A stretch of 64,000 nt of DNA from Catalinimonas niigatensis (GTDB lineage Bacteria; Bacteroidota; Bacteroidia; Cytophagales; Cyclobacteriaceae): assembly GCF_030506285.1 (NCBI RefSeq), contig NZ_CP119422.1, forward strand, positions 806,001 through 870,000, written 5' to 3'. Position 1 is the first letter of the stretch; every line of letters starts with the position of its first letter. A program made the position numbers and the translations under genes. The notes below the pieces were generated by a model. The model was not told where the DNA came from and did no database searches. It saw nothing but the letters and a program-made list of their open reading frames with translations. Shown here in pieces: positions 3,132 through 34,183 of this stretch.

Positions 3132-4325
3132 TCAGGCACCATTTTCATCTTTTGGTATTTTCTTTAAGATAACCTTTCCTTCAGTCTTTATCAAACTTGT
3201 TCCAGGTTCTGTATGGCCATATGAATTCTCATTAAACCAAGCTATTTTATTTGATTTTGTACTGCTGAAGTGTGAATATATGAAGGCAATATCATTTTTA
3301 TTTAGAGTTCCTCTTATCATATTGATTTCACCAAGTCCAAACTCAAATTCTTGAAACTGTTTTTTTTGAGACCTATTAAAGTACCTTTGATAGTTTGGTA
3401 CTTCATTGTACATAAATAACGGTTCCTCAACTACATGTTCTAAAACATTAATTCCATTCACATGAATTTTTATTTCTGATTTGAGTTCATTTGTAATTCT
3501 GTGTGAAATATTAAATAGAAGTAATTCTTTTGTTTTAATTATTTCACTTATTTCAATGTTTACGTTCCTTCCAATTAAGTCACTCAGGTATAGTTTAATT
3601 TTTCCTTGAGAACAATATAATGAGATTCTACTACTGGAATTGGGTAAAACATAATCAAAGATGAAATTTTCTTCTGCACTTAATTTTTTAAAAATAATAG
3701 TTAGAAACAATTCAAAATCTGATAGTTTTTTTATCAATTTTAATCCTACTTCTATAAATAAATCAGCGATTTGAATAATAAGATTATCAAGAATAGGCTG
3801 GTTATTTATGATAATGTTATAAGAAACTAATTCCATAAGATAATCTGGCACCTTGGTGTCATAATGTGATCCACCGTATTTGTCTGAAAGTGCATTTATT
3901 ATTTCAGAAGTTTTCAAACTTTTACCCTTGTATTTTACTATTTCAACATTTAAGTATTCTTCTAATTTGATTTCTACTTGTTTTGAAGACTGTTTCTTTA
4001 TAGAAATTGGTAGGGAAGATACATGGAGTACTATATTTTCTGCAAAATTAGGCATGTCTTCCTCAATTGTACTAGGTGTATAGAATATCTTTATTTCTTC
4101 ACCTAGCAAACTAGCTATTTCAAATAAAGGCCTTTTTTCTTTGTTCCTTTCCTTTGTTTTGTCAGTTAAAAGAGCTCTTAATTGACCATAAATAGTAGTT
4201 ACTTGGTAGTATTTTCCTTTATTTATTAGCTGTTTAGAATCAAAAACTATTCGTATAGCATGAAAAAACTCTATAAGCCTTGCTATACTTGATTTACTTA
4301 TATTTTTATTTTGCTCATTACCCAT
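3132..4325 (-). CDS. Unknown AT-rich protein, probably acquired
   Basis: This is a 397-residue protein of no family I recognise. Its base composition is clearly more AT-rich than the surrounding genes, with many Ile, Lys and Asn residues, so recent transfer is likely. The C-terminal third (QRYFNRSQKKQFQEFEFGLG, then a Gly/Asn-rich strand region ending TEGKVILKK) could be a beta-sandwich. The centre is helical and Leu/Ile-rich. There is no signal peptide and no transmembrane helix. It lies alone between hairpin-element copies A and B, like a single-gene cassette. Confidence 0.8.
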   Translation of the reverse strand: MGNEQNKNISKSSIARLIEFFHAIRIVFDSKQLINKGKYYQVTTIYGQLRALLTDKTKERNKEKRPLFEIASLLGEEIKIFYTPSTIEEDMPNFAENIVLHVSSLPISIKKQSSKQVEIKLEEYLNVEIVKYKGKSLKTSEIINALSDKYGGSHYDTKVPDYLMELVSYNIIINNQPILDNLIIQIADLFIEVGLKLIKKLSDFELFLTIIFKKLSAEENFIFDYVLPNSSSRISLYCSQGKIKLYLSDLIGRNVNIEISEIIKTKELLLFNISHRITNELKSEIKIHVNGINVLEHVVEEPLFMYNEVPNYQRYFNRSQKKQFQEFEFGLGEINMIRGTLNKNDIAFIYSHFSSTKSNKIAWFNENSYGHTEPGTSLIKTEGKVILKKIPKDENGA

Positions 4326-4372
4326 TTCAAAATGACTTCTAAAACTAAGACTGTATATAAATACTTTTATCT

Positions 4373-4573
4373 GCCGAATATCAACAATATACTATGATCC
4401 CTTAACCCTGGTCTGTGTCTCCACAGACCAGTCGCGCTGACCGGGTCATACCTGACCGATCATACTAATCAGGGTATGCCAAATGCGAGAACTCAGGTGC
4501 TTTATTGCCTGATATTTTCTATCTTCTACAAAGAAGAGGTCTGTGAGGACACAGACCAGGGAGCGGGGGGGAG
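4373..4573. repeat. Hairpin-element superfamily, copy B (best preserved)
   Basis: The core spans 4407-4561. The left end GGTCTGTGTCTCCACAGACC (4410-4429) is itself a perfect 8-bp hairpin with a TCTC loop. The right end GGTCTGTGAGGACACAGACC (4538-4557) is another 8-bp hairpin with an AGGA loop. The two ends also form a terminal inverted repeat of about 24 bp with each other. The interior contains ACTCAGGTGCTTTATTGCC, shared with copies A, C and D. The left flank CTGCCGAATATCAACAATA recurs near copy C at about 5116. Confidence 0.8.
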
Positions 4574-9278: not shown

Positions 9279-9923
9279 CTACACTTTAGCCTTCACCATG
9301 ATGCCCAGCATTTCCAGCATCTGAGGTTCATCTTTGAACGCAAAACGGGCAGCCTTACGGAAGTCACTCATCCAGGCATCCAGCTTACGAATCACTTCAT
9401 TGCGCTTTTGCGTAGCATGTTGTGCTTCTCCTTTGCAGGCAATGTGTTTGTTGCGGTTGGCCATCAGCGCCTGTACAGAAGCCTGCATCTGTGCCAGTTC
9501 TTCTGCGCTTACGCCATACTGTGCCATACGGCTACTGTCTTTCAGCAACAAAGTGTAAAAGTTATTAGCATAGGTCAGCCACTTATCTACCACAAAAGTA
9601 AGTTTACCCTGAAGTGACAGTTGAGTCTGCATAGACTTATCCGAAGCATAAGCAATTTTGGCCAGTTTACGATGGACGGCATGTGTTGCCTTTACGCCCT
9701 GCAACTCTTCCCTAAAACTGCTTCCTACTCCATACTGATTCCCGTATTTTAGAGCATGATTTTCCTGTAGCATACGAAACTCGCCCAGATATCCCTTACC
9801 CTGCTGTAGCATAGGCAGCGTATACCCAACCTTTTTAAGGGTATTCTGTATTTCAGGATAGTTCAAGCTGTTGTCCACAGCAATACTGATACGGCTTATT
9901 TTCTGATCAATGGTTTGTCTCAT
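9279..9923 (-). CDS. Unknown helical protein, paralog family member 2
   Basis: This 214-residue all-helical protein is a paralog of the genes at 1898-2530 and 33545-34183. Shared features are YLGEFRMLQENHALKYG near residue 45 (compare LLEHVQMLDAAQQKEYG in member 3), a W....FY segment in the middle (KWLTYANNFY), Q.G......Q before the last helix pair, and the C-terminal motif W...FRKAARFAFKDEPQ followed by LEMLGIMVKA. There is no signal peptide, so it is probably cytoplasmic. Hairpin element D lies immediately downstream. Function unknown. Confidence 0.87.
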   Translation of the reverse strand: MRQTIDQKISRISIAVDNSLNYPEIQNTLKKVGYTLPMLQQGKGYLGEFRMLQENHALKYGNQYGVGSSFREELQGVKATHAVHRKLAKIAYASDKSMQTQLSLQGKLTFVVDKWLTYANNFYTLLLKDSSRMAQYGVSAEELAQMQASVQALMANRNKHIACKGEAQHATQKRNEVIRKLDAWMSDFRKAARFAFKDEPQMLEMLGIMVKAKV

Positions 9924-15209: not shown

Positions 15210-17069
15210 TCATAGTGCATTATCAGCCAGTTCTTTGTTTCGTTCATCATTTAATTGTTCATCAAGACTAATGGCCGCACTGATCAGGCCCAGATGGGTA
15301 AATGCCTGAGGCGTATTGCCCAGATGTTCTCCCTGAAAACCCAGCATTTCTGAATACAGGCCCAGGTGGTTGGCATAACCCAGCATCTTTTCAAAGTTGA
15401 GGCGGGCCTTTTCTATTTCTCCGGCCTTGGCCAGACACTCCACGTACCAGAAAGTACACATGGAAAAGGTGCCTTCCTCGCCGGGCAGTCCATCCGATTC
15501 GCCTTCATCCGAACGGTAGCGGTAGACCAGGAAGTCAGAAACCAGATTCTCTTCTATGACCTTCAAAGTGCTCAGCCAGCGAGGGTCGCGGGGACTTAAA
15601 AAGCGGATCATAGGCATAAGCAGGGTAGCACCATCTACCTCATCTGACCCTTTGCTTTGCACAAAGCACTTTTTCTCCTCATCCCAAAAATCTTTAAATA
15701 CAGAATTATAGATCTCATCGCGTATGCTGCGCCATTTTTCAGGAAAAGGGAAAGGGCGCATCTGCCCCAGACGTATGGCACGGTCAACAGCCACCCAGCA
15801 CATCATGCGGGAATACAGGAAATGCTTTTTTCCTCCTCTCACTTCCCAGATACCTTCGTCCGGCTGATTCCAGTTGTCGCACAGCCAGTTGATCTGATCC
15901 TCCAGAGATTTCCAGAGGTCATAAGAGATGGGTTCACCGTATTTGTTGTAGAGGTAAACTGCGTCCAGCAGTTCTCCATAAATATCCAGCTGTAGTTGAT
16001 GATGGGCGGCATTGCCTATCCTTACCGGAGAAGACTGCTGATAACCTTCCAGGTGAGATAGTTCGGATTCGGTAAGTTCATGGTCCCCGTTGAGCTTATA
16101 CATCAGTCCCAGATAACCTGCACTGCCGATATCCTGGCAACGCTTTTCTATCCACTGCATAAAGTGGGTGGCCTCTTTGCGGTAGCCCAGGTTGAGCAGC
16201 GCATATACGGTAAAGGAAGCATCTCTGATCCAGGTATAGCGATAATCCCAGTTCCTGACGCCTCCCAGCCATTCCGGCAAGCCAAAAGTAGGGGCAGCCA
16301 CGATAGACCCGTACTTTCTGGAGGTAAGCAGCTTCAGCACCAGGGCAGAACGATTGACAATTTCCATCCACCGTCCTTTGTAGGTTGATTTAGATATCCA
16401 GTTTTTCCAATATTTAATGGTAAGGCGCAAACGGTTCTCTACAAAGCGATCAATAGGCTCCAGAGTTTCGGAAACCTCATCGTGTTCATCGTCGCAATCG
16501 AGGGGCTCGCCATAAGCTTCCATCACAAAGTCTATTTTCTGTCCGGGTTTGATGGTAAAGGTAGTGCGGACATCATCACCATCCTGCTGCAAAGCCACAT
16601 TGCTTCTGAGGCAAAAGGCTATTCCATCCTCACCCTTACTTTTAAAGATGGCCTGCTTTCCCCTAAGCTCCAGATGGTGTCCGCTTCTGGCATAGTTGAA
16701 ACGTGGACTACAGCTCAGGTGAAACTTCATGGTCCCCCGCACGCAGGTCACACGGCGTACCAGATCGTTCTGTTCGCAGGTTTCGCCCACCGGCATGAAG
16801 TCCGTAATTTCAACCACCCCCTCGTCAGACAAAAAACGGGTAAGCAAGACATTGGTATCAGGAAGATACATCTGCCGCGTCCTGTAGTTTTCTTTTTCGG
16901 GATGAAGAGAGAAATACCCTCCCTTTTCAGCATCCAGGATTTTTGCAAAAATAGAGGGCGAGTCAAAGTCGGGAAAACACATGAAATCTATGGAGCCATT
17001 CATGCCCACCAGTGCCACAGTGTTTAAGTCTCCAATGATTCCATAATTCTCTATCGGTTGATACTTCAT
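15210..17069 (-). CDS. Glycoside hydrolase family 15 protein
   Basis: This 619-residue cytoplasmic protein has the bacterial GH15 layout: an N-terminal beta-sandwich (MKYQPIENYGIIGDLNTVAL, GSIDFMCFPDFDSPSIF) followed by an (alpha/alpha)6 barrel. The barrel shows RNWDYRYTWIRDASFT at about 268-283 and PDEGIWEVRGG at about 400, whose Glu is the expected general acid. A second Glu near FWYVECLAKAG is the expected base. Known members act as glucoamylases or as trehalases; this N-terminal type includes the mycobacterial-type trehalase. The substrate here cannot be decided from sequence. No linked trehalose or glycogen genes are present. Confidence 0.93.
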   Translation of the reverse strand: MKYQPIENYGIIGDLNTVALVGMNGSIDFMCFPDFDSPSIFAKILDAEKGGYFSLHPEKENYRTRQMYLPDTNVLLTRFLSDEGVVEITDFMPVGETCEQNDLVRRVTCVRGTMKFHLSCSPRFNYARSGHHLELRGKQAIFKSKGEDGIAFCLRSNVALQQDGDDVRTTFTIKPGQKIDFVMEAYGEPLDCDDEHDEVSETLEPIDRFVENRLRLTIKYWKNWISKSTYKGRWMEIVNRSALVLKLLTSRKYGSIVAAPTFGLPEWLGGVRNWDYRYTWIRDASFTVYALLNLGYRKEATHFMQWIEKRCQDIGSAGYLGLMYKLNGDHELTESELSHLEGYQQSSPVRIGNAAHHQLQLDIYGELLDAVYLYNKYGEPISYDLWKSLEDQINWLCDNWNQPDEGIWEVRGGKKHFLYSRMMCWVAVDRAIRLGQMRPFPFPEKWRSIRDEIYNSVFKDFWDEEKKCFVQSKGSDEVDGATLLMPMIRFLSPRDPRWLSTLKVIEENLVSDFLVYRYRSDEGESDGLPGEEGTFSMCTFWYVECLAKAGEIEKARLNFEKMLGYANHLGLYSEMLGFQGEHLGNTPQAFTHLGLISAAISLDEQLNDERNKELADNAL

Positions 17070-17341
17070 ATTGGTGGGAGCTTTTATTTACAATTAATCA
17101 AACCAAAAAAGAAATGTTTATATTTTTTTACCCTTTGGCTTCTATCAGTAAATGATATGCATACACAAAAGAAAAGCAAGGCCGTTCAGACCGCTTAAGT
17201 GCACATTTCATGCGCACTTCCATTTGCAAATATCTATTTCAATGGTAGAGCAAAAGATTGTTCACGCTTAAACTACAAGTATAAATGTGATTTTTTTTGA
17301 TGTTTTCTTATATTGAGTGATTCACAAAACCACTTTGCTAT

Positions 17342-17797
17342 ATGACTCAGTTTAAGGTGATTCCCGGCTTAACTTTTTTGCTAACCTTCCTTTTGTTTAT
17401 TCATGTTGAAGGAATTAGTCAGAGCCATTGCTTTTGTGAATTTGAGCGAAGCCAGGAAAAAGAAGGATATACTAGGGTGAATATATATTCCATGGAGCAG
17501 GATAACAAGGGTCTGATAGGCAGCATAGCCTATAAAGTATTGCGCAACGAAATACAATCTAACAAAGACACTCATCAAAGTACCTACCCTATTGAAGTAC
17601 GTTGGGATGGAGCAATCCATCAGTATCAGATGAATAAGCTTCAATTATATGAAGGAGAAAGCAGGATTGGCTATGCATCCAATCTACAAATAGGCATTAC
17701 CAAAATCATCCCGCATCTTCTGCCCAAACAATGTGACAGTGCAACTCAAATGCAGGGCTCTCAAAAGGAGATACTGTTCAATGCCCAACTTAAATAG
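17342..17797 (+). CDS. Unknown secreted protein
   Basis: This 151-residue protein has a signal peptide (hydrophobic 8-22, ending near GISQS). The first mature residues SHCFCEF contain two close Cys, and a third Cys lies near the end. The rest (IGSIAYKVLRNEI, YPIEVRWDGAIHQY) has no recognised motif. Hairpin element G lies just downstream. Confidence 0.72.
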   Translation: MTQFKVIPGLTFLLTFLLFIHVEGISQSHCFCEFERSQEKEGYTRVNIYSMEQDNKGLIGSIAYKVLRNEIQSNKDTHQSTYPIEVRWDGAIHQYQMNKLQLYEGESRIGYASNLQIGITKIIPHLLPKQCDSATQMQGSQKEILFNAQLK

Positions 17798-17890: not shown

Positions 17891-17894
17891 CAGT

Positions 17895-17936
17895 TCAGGA
17901 AATCACAATCCCATACTTCTCGGCCATTTTTATGAA
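17895..17936 (-). pseudogene. dnaG 3'-end remnant 1
   Basis: Read on the minus strand, the bases encode FIKMAEKYGIVIS followed by a stop, resembling the end of the intact primase (NKIANKYGTVVPR). The 29-base stretch from 17893 matches the second remnant at 19295 with one mismatch. No upstream primase sequence is attached. It is best explained as a leftover C-terminal codon block. Confidence 0.6.
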
Positions 17937-18075
17937 AGGAATAAATAAGGTAATATTCTTTTACTTTGAAACTCAAAATCACACGGGACAAGAATTCTGA
18001 AAAACTCAAAAATTAATTGGTATAGAAGTGAAATATTGCGCTTGGTTTACAGCTTTTTAAAAATCACTTCAAAGC

Positions 18076-19278
18076 ATGGCAAAATGTATTTCATTCATCC
18101 TCATTTTACTTCTAACCTATACTTTTCATCAAACATATTCCCAAAGTGCTTTTCAGGAAGCTATAATTATTACTCAGGAGAAGGACAGCCTGCATGGGTA
18201 TCTCACTCTTACCAATGACAATGAATATCTCTTCACACAGGGTAAAAATCAGGTTGAGCAACTGCTTTCGCCCGAAAACATCGGCACTATTCTTTTGAAT
18301 AAAAATACTGTTTTTGAGTCAAAAAGAATTGTAACGGATGGAAATGAACAAGCGATATTTTTAAAATTACTTGTACGAGGCAAATCAAAACTTTATCAAC
18401 ATCCCAATAGTAAAAAGAGCACATACTGGGTAGAGACTGAAGATGGTAAAATGTATGCCCTTACCAATGAAAGACTAGAATCTTACAGAGACGGAAGAAG
18501 TTATATACGTTATTCAAACACTTACCGTGGGGTACTGAAAAATATATTTAACGATCAACCTCAATTATTTTCACAAATTGACAAATTAAAATATACCGAA
18601 AAATCCATCAGTGGCTTCTATCAGCAATATCATGAAAAGCTTAACCTGCCTTATGAAATCCTGAGTGAGGAAACGCCATACGTAGCATTGACTTTTGGCT
18701 TGATAGTGGGTTTACAACGTTCATCCGTAGAGTTCATTGGTACACAAGTGCTGGAAAGTCACCTCTCACCTTCATTCAGTTCCAGTAGTAATTTTAGCTT
18801 AGGAATATTTGCAGAAGCTCAACCCATAGAATACAGGCACTCTGCGATTAAACTGGAAGTACAATATCAATCTGCTTCTTATTCAAATCCCACATTAACG
18901 TTGAACACAAATATCCTGAGAATTTCTCCTGCCTATAAATATCGTATTGCACCTAATGCTAAACTGAAGCCCTTTCTCAGTCTGGGACCAACATTTAATT
19001 TCCTGCTCTCATTGAAAGATCAAAGTACCGTGGATGGACTTGATTACAACTGGCTTCAGAGTGGTAGAATGCAATATGGGTTAGAAGCAGGCACAGGAAT
19101 TAGTACAAAGATCAACCAAAAGCAAGATCTATTTCTTGAGCTTAGATATGGTGTACATAATGGTAATCATCTTTCTATTGTCAGGCGATTTGTGCCCGGA
19201 GTGGGATATATTTCCGTTCAAGACTTATTTGATTCTATATCTCAGTCTTTAGGAATACTGGTTGGTATCAGATTTTAA
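18076..19278 (+). CDS. Outer-membrane beta-barrel protein
   Basis: This 400-residue protein starts MAKCISFILILLLTYTF, a signal peptide ending near TYSQ. Residues 25-160 form a strand-rich N-terminal domain (KDSLHGYLTLTNDNEY, KTNERLESYRDGRSYI-like pattern). Residues 195-400 have the alternating pattern of an 8-to-10-strand barrel ending in LGILVGIRF, a typical terminal strand. The gene at 32308 has the same two-part layout, including the DTLYG/DSLHG motif after the signal peptide. This gene is bracketed by the two dnaG 3'-end remnants, so it may be cargo of an insertion there. Confidence 0.85.
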   Translation: MAKCISFILILLLTYTFHQTYSQSAFQEAIIITQEKDSLHGYLTLTNDNEYLFTQGKNQVEQLLSPENIGTILLNKNTVFESKRIVTDGNEQAIFLKLLVRGKSKLYQHPNSKKSTYWVETEDGKMYALTNERLESYRDGRSYIRYSNTYRGVLKNIFNDQPQLFSQIDKLKYTEKSISGFYQQYHEKLNLPYEILSEETPYVALTFGLIVGLQRSSVEFIGTQVLESHLSPSFSSSSNFSLGIFAEAQPIEYRHSAIKLEVQYQSASYSNPTLTLNTNILRISPAYKYRIAPNAKLKPFLSLGPTFNFLLSLKDQSTVDGLDYNWLQSGRMQYGLEAGTGISTKINQKQDLFLELRYGVHNGNHLSIVRRFVPGVGYISVQDLFDSISQSLGILVGIRF

Positions 19279-19296
19279 AATTTATTATCCCTCTGT

Positions 19297-19386
19297 TCAG
19301 GAAATCACAATCCCATATTTCTCTGCGATCTTTCTTTTGACGGCGATCAGGTGCTGTATTTCGGTCATGAGGATGAAAAATCAATA
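19297..19386 (-). pseudogene. dnaG 3'-end remnant 2
   Basis: The minus strand reads MTEIQHLIAVKRKIAEKYG, then IVIS and a stop. This aligns with the intact C-terminus (LIELQKIYNKIANKYGTVVP). The frame is closed upstream, so only about 25 codons survive. Its 3' end is nearly identical in DNA to remnant 1. The intact dnaG ends 215 bases further right. Confidence 0.65.
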
Positions 19387-19499
19387 GGACATCTTCAATT
19401 TTTTTATGTCGTACTGCATTTTAGTGCGATGGCCTGAATATCCGGCGGGCGGGTGATGGCTTGTGCGTGGAAGCGTTCGGAGATTCTAGACTTTTTTGA

Positions 19500-19528
19500 T
19501 TACTTTTTGTGGCAATGACAAAAAGTAA
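19500..19528. terminator. Perfect 11-bp hairpin downstream of dnaG
   Basis: TTACTTTTTGT (19500-19510) pairs exactly with ACAAAAAGTAA (19518-19528) around a 7-base loop. It lies about 75 bases after the dnaG stop and could serve as terminator. The T-run/A-run in the arms would favour release on either strand. Confidence 0.5.
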
Positions 19529-19600
19529 CAAAGCGGTTAAGCGACCTGTAATATAAAAGCTTATTAGAAGCCAAAATATCAAAGAGACTACTAAGTATGC

Positions 19601-21565
19601 CTATCTAGGAACTACAGTTCCATACTTATTTGCAATCTTATTGTAAATTTTTTGTAATTCAATTAATTCTTTTTGTATCAGAATCACATTGTTTATATCA
19701 GTCTCATCTTTTAATTCTAAAGTTTTTTGTGCTAACATGAATTTGAGAACATCAAACTTGAGCTGGTCTATGCTGCGGGTAATCACATCCAGGATCTTTT
19801 CATCCTTCTTGGGTACATAGACCTCCCGCTGTTCCCAGTTGGGGCTGGGCATATAATGGTCTACAATCAGATTGATTACCTGTCGGGAGACTTCTGCTTC
19901 GGTTTGCTCAATCATAAACTTTTCCATCAGGCTTTTCTGTGTATCCACATGCTGATAATAAGTGCTGAAAATACGCTGGTATATATCGTGTTTCAGGCTG
20001 ATATCGTCCAGTTCGTCTTTGATGTAATGGCAAACCATATAATCTTCCTTCACCGGATGGTGTCCATACATCACCAGCACCCGCGTCAGTTCTTTTTCTT
20101 TGCTCAGGATAGCTTCTTCTATGCCTACCGAAGCAGGCTCATCCAACGGCTCTTCAGGATGTACAAAATCTATGTCTGCTACTCCCTTTTCTTGCTCTTC
20201 ATAAGTCTGCTGCCGGGAAGAAGAGCGCTGCTGCTTGAGATAAATCTTATTGAGCTCCGCAAATAAAGTGCTTTCATCCATCCCTAGCTTGACACTGGTT
20301 TCTTTGATATACACCTGGCGCTGAATAGGATCGGGGATTTTGGAGATACTCTGCACAATCTCCCGGATTACCTCCGCCCGACGGATAGGATCACGCTCAG
20401 TTTCTTCCTGATAGACCGCCGTTTTGAAGGAGATAAAATCCTGCTGTTTTTCCTGGAGGAATTCCCTGAACTGGCTGCCGCCGGAGTGCCGGCCACCCAG
20501 TTTGCGCACATAGCTGTCGGGGTCTTCTCCTTCCGGCAGCACTACGGCCTTTACATTCAGCCCACCTTCCAGGATCATGTCAATGCCCCGGAATGAAGCT
20601 TTGAGTCCGGCAGGGTCACCGTCAAATAGTACGGTCACATTTTTGGTATAGCGGGCAATCAGGCGGATCTGCTCCTGCGTAAGCGAGGTACCCGAAGAGG
20701 CCACTACATTTTGTATACCGGCCTGATACAGTGAAATTACATCGGTATAACCTTCTACCAGATAACAGGTATCCTCCTGGCGGATCTGCTGCTTGGCCTG
20801 ATAGATGCCGTAGAGCACATCACTTTTGTGGTAAATAGGTGTTTCCGGGGAGTTGAGATATTTAGGTTGCTCAACCTCAGGATTGTTTTTTAGTAGTCTT
20901 GCTCCAAAAGCGATAACTCTACCGCTAATGTTGTGGATGGGGAACATGACTCTGCCGCGAAAGCGGTCGTAGTGCCTGGTTCCCTCTTTCCTTTCCCGGC
21001 TGATGATGAGTCCGGCTTTTTCCAGCATTTCCTGCTTATGACCGACTTTGATAGCCATTTTGAGCATTCCATCCCATTCATCCAGGCTGTAGCCCAGGTC
21101 AAAAGCTTTGATGGTTTCTTCGGAGAAGCCTCTTTCCTTGAAATAGGTAAGCCCGATGGCTTTGCCCTCTTCACTTTTCCAGAGCTGCTCCTGAAAATAG
21201 TCAGAAGCATATTTCATCACAATGTAGAGACTGTCTTTCTCACTCTGCGCCTCCATCTCCTCGTCGGTGAGGTTTTCCTCTTCCACCTCTATGCCGTAGC
21301 GTTTGCCCAATTGCTTGAGGGCTTCAATGTAACTCATCCCTTCCGACTCCATCATAAAAGAAATGGCATCGCCGGCTTTGCCGGAGCTAAAGTCTTTGTA
21401 AAAACCTTTGGAAGGTACTACGTAAAAGGATGGCGTCTTTTCCTGGTTGAAAGGACTGAAACCCCGGTAATTACTTCCCTGCTTTTTCAGGTTCACATAA
21501 TCTCCCACCACATCCAGGATGTCAATTCTTGCCTTAATCTCATCTATAATTTCCTTCCTGATCAT
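19601..21565 (-). CDS. dnaG: DNA primase
   Basis: This 654-residue primase makes RNA primers for replication. The N-terminal CHC2-type fold is recognisable (NYRGFSPFNQEKTPSF, FYKDFSSGKAGDA), but all four zinc ligands are replaced: Ser37, Asn40, Asp58 and Ser61. The TOPRIM core is intact (LVEGYTDVISLYQAG and VLFDGDPAGLKA). A C-terminal DnaB-interaction region follows. From memory, zinc-ligand loss occurs in other Bacteroidota primases, so this is probably functional. The start MIRKEIIDEIKARIDILDVV is canonical. Two remnants of a primase 3' end lie downstream at 19297 and 17895. Divergent from mrp. Confidence 0.97.
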   Translation of the reverse strand: MIRKEIIDEIKARIDILDVVGDYVNLKKQGSNYRGFSPFNQEKTPSFYVVPSKGFYKDFSSGKAGDAISFMMESEGMSYIEALKQLGKRYGIEVEEENLTDEEMEAQSEKDSLYIVMKYASDYFQEQLWKSEEGKAIGLTYFKERGFSEETIKAFDLGYSLDEWDGMLKMAIKVGHKQEMLEKAGLIISRERKEGTRHYDRFRGRVMFPIHNISGRVIAFGARLLKNNPEVEQPKYLNSPETPIYHKSDVLYGIYQAKQQIRQEDTCYLVEGYTDVISLYQAGIQNVVASSGTSLTQEQIRLIARYTKNVTVLFDGDPAGLKASFRGIDMILEGGLNVKAVVLPEGEDPDSYVRKLGGRHSGGSQFREFLQEKQQDFISFKTAVYQEETERDPIRRAEVIREIVQSISKIPDPIQRQVYIKETSVKLGMDESTLFAELNKIYLKQQRSSSRQQTYEEQEKGVADIDFVHPEEPLDEPASVGIEEAILSKEKELTRVLVMYGHHPVKEDYMVCHYIKDELDDISLKHDIYQRIFSTYYQHVDTQKSLMEKFMIEQTEAEVSRQVINLIVDHYMPSPNWEQREVYVPKKDEKILDVITRSIDQLKFDVLKFMLAQKTLELKDETDINNVILIQKELIELQKIYNKIANKYGTVVPR

Positions 21566-33544: not shown

Positions 33545-34183
33545 TCAGGCATTTACTTTACTCACCAATCCAAGGCCCTTAAGCGTTTGCATATCATCAA
33601 CGAAAGCCAGGCGGGCAGCTTGGGTGAAGCGACGCATCCATACTTCCAGTTTGTCCAGGGCTTCGTTGCGTAGTTGCGTGGCTGCCTGGGCTTCATTGTC
33701 TTCTTTTTGCCGCACATTGTAGGCTTCAATGACCGCATCAATCATGCTTTCACCCTGCTGAAGCTCTGCTTCGGGCAGGTTATATTGTGCCAATGTTTCC
33801 TTTACCTGATAAACATTGCTATAAAAGGTATGTGCCTGGGCCAGCCATCCAAACAGGTCATCTTTTCGCGCTCCACTAAGCTCAAGGGTTTTCCAGTAGC
33901 CTCTCTGCTCTTTCAGTGCAAATCGGGCCACCTCAATATGTTTTTTATACAATGTCTTAGCCTGCTGCCGTGCCTGATTGAGCTCATCGGTAGCCTGGTA
34001 ACGCTCACCGTATTCTTTTTGCTGGGCAGCATCCAGCATTTGAACATGTTCCAGCAAACCTCTTCCCTGTATGATCTCAGCTTTGGACATACCCACTTTG
34101 TTAAGTCCTTTTTGCACAGCATCCGTGCGAAGGGTATAATCAATGGCGGTTTGTATCCGCTTGAGTTTGTTTGTTCTTTTCAT
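33545..34183 (-). CDS. Unknown helical protein, paralog family member 3
   Basis: This 212-residue all-helical protein has no signal peptide. Its internal duplication is the clearest of the three: HIEVARFALKEQRGYWKTLE in the middle matches FTQAARLAFVDDMQTLKGLG at the C-terminus. The segment WLAQAHTFYSNVY ... LAQYNLPEAELQQG corresponds to member 1 (WLMQCQRFYYHAA ... LAKYNITPTEIAEM). A large antisense frame is a shadow. Its function is unknown; the neighbour downstream on the same strand is an outer-membrane protein. Confidence 0.87.
   Translation of the reverse strand: MKRTNKLKRIQTAIDYTLRTDAVQKGLNKVGMSKAEIIQGRGLLEHVQMLDAAQQKEYGERYQATDELNQARQQAKTLYKKHIEVARFALKEQRGYWKTLELSGARKDDLFGWLAQAHTFYSNVYQVKETLAQYNLPEAELQQGESMIDAVIEAYNVRQKEDNEAQAATQLRNEALDKLEVWMRRFTQAARLAFVDDMQTLKGLGLVSKVNA

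Follow-up and report, generated by a model that had tools for sequence, protein, structure and literature searches.

The 3' end of the primase gene dnaG of Catalinimonas niigatensis (G000 in the genome comparisons below) has very probably been replaced recently by a diverged one. The window, that is, the whole stretch of DNA analysed, spans 64,000 nucleotides, positions 806001-870000 of a single-contig genome of 7.13 Mb, in which searches match dnaG only once. The region comprises the following features, with the dnaG end and both minus-strand remnants at the coordinates and in the frames that an earlier note had reported:

17893..17931, minus strand: remnant 2, an apparent second displaced dnaG end, 11 codons, the stop codon and 2 bases beyond it (matches to remnant 1 and to the congeners G001 and G002)
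18076..19278, plus strand: outer-membrane beta-barrel gene between the remnants (PF13568, E = 1.3e-7; GC 36.7%)
19297..19374, minus strand: remnant 1, the ancestral end of dnaG, now displaced, comprising 25 codons plus the stop codon (comparison with G001; alignment over 121 nt)
19420..19533, minus strand: dispersed intergenic repeat with a hairpin (TTACTTTTTGT...ACAAAAAGTAA), copies of which are present in the same genome and in relatives
19534..19600, minus strand: spacer of 67 bases located 3' of the new stop codon, 34% GC
19601..19741, minus strand: new, probably foreign dnaG 3' end, 46 codons and the stop codon (GC content; gap-free homology to native tails)
19742..21565, minus strand: native dnaG body, codons 1-608 (identity to congeners, GC content, Pfam)

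The dnaG body yields Pfam matches to the primase domains and to DnaB_bind, and the whole protein is 86% identical to DnaG of G001 and 81% to that of G002, the only other members of the genus that appeared in the searches. At the nucleotide level, identity to the two congeners breaks off beyond codon 608. DnaG now terminates in ...KIANKYGTVVPR, with the stop codon at 19601, whereas the congener proteins end in ...LIILMTEIQHLIAVKRQIAEKYGIVIS (G001) and ...LIILMTEIQHLVSVKREIAKKYDIVIS (G002). Ahead of the break, sites unique to the C. niigatensis dnaG become mildly more frequent, at 17 and 18 in 150 columns where earlier parts of the body have 7-14. The body also contains a five-residue insertion, GGRHS as aligned, at residues 357-361 (window 20483-20497), which is missing from both congeners.

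The break in identity coincides with a drop in GC content, from 47.5% (GC3, 55.8%) in the body to 24.8% (GC3, 21.3%) in the final 141 bases. The difference between tail and body amounts to -22.7 points, compared with a mean of -3.9 and a minimum of -11.4 among 43 other dnaG genes, a set that consists of 60 loci minus duplicates and tails missed by the search pattern (G002 is among those dropped) and that includes some partial bodies because of short loci. The native dnaG tail of G002, left out of this comparison, has a GC content of 31.9%. Within the window, 89 of the 16,178 coding windows (from 45 non-overlapping ORFs) are as AT-rich as the dnaG tail, 83 of them in a single ORF at 3132-4391; an earlier count limited to 22 hand-picked genes found none among 11,031. 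Low GC by itself is no proof of a foreign origin of the tail. An ORF at 3132-4325 (397 aa, 27.9% GC, no Pfam match) has the lowest GC content of the 32 stretches listed, with the exception of the dnaG tail.

The new tail aligns with the native tails of the congeners gap-free over 43 columns, with scores of 73 (G001) and 77 (G002); the shuffles peaked at 49 and 52, and none of the 5000 reached the observed scores. Identical residues number 15 of 43 and 16 of 43 (35-37%), and among the 43 other dnaG tails the best match is that of G001 (score 73; runner-up, 63). Given this gap-free homology and the best match within the genus, the new end is a real primase ending, AT-rich and much diverged, from a source near the genus. 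The break at codon 608, the GC drop and the comparison with the congeners together bear out the earlier suggestion that the present dnaG end was brought in from outside. The C-terminal 187 residues of DnaG, modelled without an alignment, are predicted to be entirely helical (mean pLDDT, 50), and a sequence search of the PDB returned a single match, at E = 0.5, which is not a primase. Because dnaG is present in a single copy, the chimaeric primase that combines the native body with the new tail is presumably functional.

The old end lies 226 bp downstream of the present stop codon. Remnant 1 reads ILMTEIQHLIAVKRKIAEKYGIVIS-stop and is thus longer, at 25 codons plus the stop, than the form KRKIAEKYGIVIS-stop ending at 19297 given in the earlier note, in which the positions were right; upstream of these codons, weaker, frameshifted similarity continues to about 19417. 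It agrees with the DnaG end of G001 in 24 of 25 residues, and across the last 26 codons, including the stop, the two differ by 12 synonymous changes and 1 nonsynonymous change, which indicates that remnant 1 evolved as a working coding end until recently. A native-tail query, which carried one remnant-derived residue, retrieved remnant 1 from the genome at E = 1.9e-10. The present dnaG tail used as a query matched it weakly (E = 0.002), in a range where other genes gave chance matches (0.004-0.01), so that the identity of remnant 1 rests on the congeners. These comparisons demonstrate that the lineage carried a genus-type dnaG ending until recently and that remnant 1 is that ending. Alignment with the dnaG ends of the congeners, the check that had been proposed, accordingly identifies the old ending as the genus type and the present one as different.

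Remnant 2 codes for KMAEKYGIVIS-stop on the minus strand, ending at 17895. It matches remnant 1 in 35 of 39 bases, including a 29-base stretch with one mismatch, close to the match of about 30 bases noticed before, and 23 consecutive identical bases that extend 2 bases past the stop codon. It also matches the dnaG ends of G001 (28/33) and G002 (26/31). A whole-genome search with the 39-base stretch found 17893-17931 at E = 2.4e-7 as the sole second copy at E <= 1e-3. Over 11 codons, including the stop, the two remnants differ by 2 synonymous changes and 1 nonsynonymous change; on little sequence, remnant 2 likewise looks like a recent dnaG end. The genus-type ending and the codon-wise conservation relative to G001 support the view that both remnants once served as dnaG ends. 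The barrel segment is thus flanked by an identical 23-base core, as expected of an integrative element. At the two junctions of the new tail, no repeated core was found: the longest word shared by two 75-base stretches is 6 bases, against a shuffle mean of 6.15, and 74% of 200 shuffles reached that length.

The flank that arrived with the new tail contains the dispersed repeat and no gene of its own. The repeat is about 113 bases long, and a second copy in the same genome, 81% identical, lies at G000:C1:4269570-4269735. It matches 11 of the 59 genomes compared, including G000, with 4 matches in G001, 1 in G026, 4 in G015 and 11 in G040, and can be described as an intergenic repeat belonging to the order. 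As a whole, the repeat stretch folds no better than shuffles do (z = -0.91), and the far end of the adjacent spacer shows weak similarity to the flank of one repeat copy. Considered as a tail-replacing element, the repeat gave no sign of such a role in the flanks compared, which were those of 18 of its 29 other matches. The flanks that slightly exceed their 60 shuffles are those at L144 and L155 and that of the window's own copy; by eye, one of the L144 and L155 signals is a low-complexity match of hydrophobic residues and the other runs into repeat sequence. Open frames near 19 repeat copies lie in both orientations.

The earlier note proposed the beta-barrel gene between the remnants as candidate cargo. 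G001 has a barrel orthologue (55-56%) in the same place and the same orientation beside an unbroken native dnaG end, and the 20 kb examined there revealed no further end of this gene; the barrel is therefore no more than candidate cargo. The gene is patchy in the family, matched in 9 of 59 genomes including G000 and G001, with no match in G002. It reached the spot adjacent to dnaG before the split of G000 and G001, or did so twice; an older arrival is possible, and the insertion that left remnant 2 seems to be younger than the arrival of the barrel. The stretch downstream of dnaG is variable within the genus. At window positions 15210-17797, a GH15 glycosidase gene and a small gene that has no Pfam match occupy the place that in G001 belongs to an acetyltransferase-like gene. 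Elsewhere in the window, three proteins (1898-2674, 9279-9923 and 33545-34183) look alike by eye and have no Pfam match; weak relatives of the third occur in L031 and L032.

We surveyed the recurrence of second dnaG ends with a profile of 16 tails in two overlapping sets, 293 relatives and 390 family genomes. The profile matched in 274 and 370 of these, respectively, with at most 16 candidates scored per genome in the larger set; short or decayed tails could escape detection. Two matches were present in seven of the relatives (G000, G418, G487, G513, G116, G142 and G144) and in five of the family genomes (G000, G418, G487, G513 and G680, the last 79% complete). Inspection of the seven one by one left G142 as the only genome besides G000 in which a complete dnaG is followed by a second tail. 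In G418, the tail is split over two frames (G418:C1:22116-22303), by a frameshift or a sequencing error; G487 and G144 contain two gene copies or fragments (two whole genes in G487); and the matches in G513, a weak one, and G116 lie on other contigs. Among the 390 family genomes, in which G418, G487 and G513 were inspected, there is accordingly no other confirmed displaced tail, and the idea that the dnaG 3' end is an insertion hot spot is not supported: the one further adjacent second tail confirmed is the tandem arrangement in G142, a member of another family. There, at G142:C65:26136-26506 (L125, L132), the second tail has 57 open codons and starts at the dnaG stop codon itself. Both G142 tails share an ending that is missing from five congeners, which suggests that the second tail arose by a local duplication.

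Within 1.4-1.5 kb downstream of dnaG in 29 relatives, no second end was found at E <= 0.01; the weaker matches, at E 0.04 and up, were read as chance. A broader comparison took in 109 long open frames, some of them overlapping or spurious, at the loci of three relatives and in the window; it gave 6 tail-duplication matches at E <= 0.02. Of these, dnaG accounts for one (E = 0.002), another is L033, an apparent tandem paralogue (36% over 50 residues), and the remaining four (E = 0.004-0.018) were read as noise; tail duplication is thus no general habit.

Searches for a donor of the new tail, several of which detect close similarity only, found nothing outside the genus better than E = 0.016 in 390 genomes of the order or E = 0.022 in 395 genomes of the class. 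None was confirmed in GTDB contigs or in IMG/VR; the best phage match had E = 2, and plasmids gave no match. The GTDB contigs searched with a dnaG alignment returned one distant primase only, 33% identical, which was rejected as a donor. A Pfam scan of 28 proteins of the window, which has 45 non-overlapping ORFs, revealed no integrase. In the open-licence literature, nothing relevant was found on dnaG as an integration site or on displaced gene ends.

How the exchange occurred is less certain than the exchange itself. The explanation that we favour, tentatively and at somewhat short of an even chance, is one-ended recombination with incoming dnaG DNA. The incoming DNA would have carried a homologous, AT-rich dnaG 3' end and its downstream flank, that is, the spacer and the chromosomal-type repeat. 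It would have recombined in register inside dnaG at about codon 608, while the other end of the incoming piece was joined illegitimately to a site in the old dnaG tail. The donor tail would have completed the reading frame, and the old tail, pushed downstream, would have begun to decay; remnant 2, beyond the barrel gene, would stem from a similar event at an earlier time. The alignment runs gap-free across codon 608, that is, this junction is in register with the recipient gene, as in homology-facilitated illegitimate recombination (HFIR), and 17-60 nt of the old tail are missing at the far junction, depending on the trust placed in weak homology. One-ended recombination explains the in-register junction, this loss, the ordinary flank with its repeat and the coreless new junction. 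The sharp break of identity and GC, the purifying selection recorded in remnant 1, the closeness of the new tail to the genus and the single dnaG also favour it, as does the gene behind remnant 1, which is the one that follows dnaG in G001. Against it stand the fruitless donor searches, a dnaG body without a certain donor stretch before codon 608, the low GC that has parallels in the window and in the native tail of G002, and the identical core of the two remnants, which resembles an att repeat.

This core and the AT-rich tail are what site-specific integrative elements would explain, if these used the dnaG 3' end as their attachment site, supplied a mimic of it and were later lost except for their ends, with the barrel left over. 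The earlier note regarded the locus as such a footprint, and the part of that claim that stands is that the end was replaced and the old one displaced, the hallmark of such elements; the 28 window proteins scanned include no integrase, and the new junction showed no core. An AT-rich, genus-like tail could be an element-borne copy, and the core flanks a patchy, rather AT-rich gene, but no other confirmed case exists in the 390 family genomes, the barrel adjoins dnaG in G001, where no second end was found, and the new tail is far less similar to native tails than is usual for such elements. We consider this explanation possible but doubtful, and one-ended recombination fits at least as well. It is unlikely, at about half that weight, that a new integrative element with the last dnaG codons as att carries a fast-diverging AT-rich primase C-terminus, such that the helicase-facing tail would differ with each integration. 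Slightly less likely still is a mixed origin, in which only the barrel-side event was element-borne, with the last 33-39 bases of dnaG as att, and the new tail came by another route. This would fit a core that the remnants share and the new tail lacks, and a barrel gene of this distribution and composition, but remnant 2 seems, on a small sample, too well kept to predate the split of G000 and G001, yet the barrel is already present in G001. A tandem duplication of the dnaG tail within the genome, with later divergence of the copies, has a precedent in G142, with its second tail directly after the stop and the ending common to both; in C. niigatensis, the unused copy is conserved and the used copy is divergent and AT-rich, the reverse of the prediction, which makes this route improbable. 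Chance, or ordinary repeats unrelated to dnaG, might be entertained for remnant 2, which is short, but the E-values of both remnants and their codon-wise conservation leave it almost no credibility.

Phage 21 and e14 insert in the housekeeping gene icd, where a new end is supplied and the old one is displaced, and gene tails supplied by elements are usually near-identical to the native ones. The excerpted text of one source places a phage-21-type prophage and e14 in icd of E. coli (PMC12803456). At dnaG, too, a new end was supplied and the old one displaced downstream; unlike in icd, no integrase, element or core at the new junction was found, and the identity of the tail to the native ones is only 35-37%. 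The favoured one-ended recombination has its closest parallel in HFIR, in which, according to the excerpted text of PMC3240628, one end is homologous and the other illegitimate, foreign DNA enters and recipient sequence is lost, the illegitimate junction mostly involves 3-10 bp of microhomology with a coupled deletion, and insertions and deletions average 1 kb each. Measured against that description, the proposed dnaG event is alike in its one homologous and one illegitimate end and in the entry of foreign DNA, with an apparent loss of recipient sequence, and it differs in scale, with about 325-370 bp gained and 17-60 nt lost.

The C. niigatensis locus presents a clear, roughly datable swap: an essential replication gene, present in a single copy, exchanged its end for that of a diverged homologue, and the end it discarded can still be read. 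The combination of a GC break between body and tail with a displaced tail offers a template by which further gene-end swaps could be sought. Should an element be responsible, dnaG would join the protein genes that serve as integration sites. The swap also indicates how tolerant the C-terminus of primase may be.
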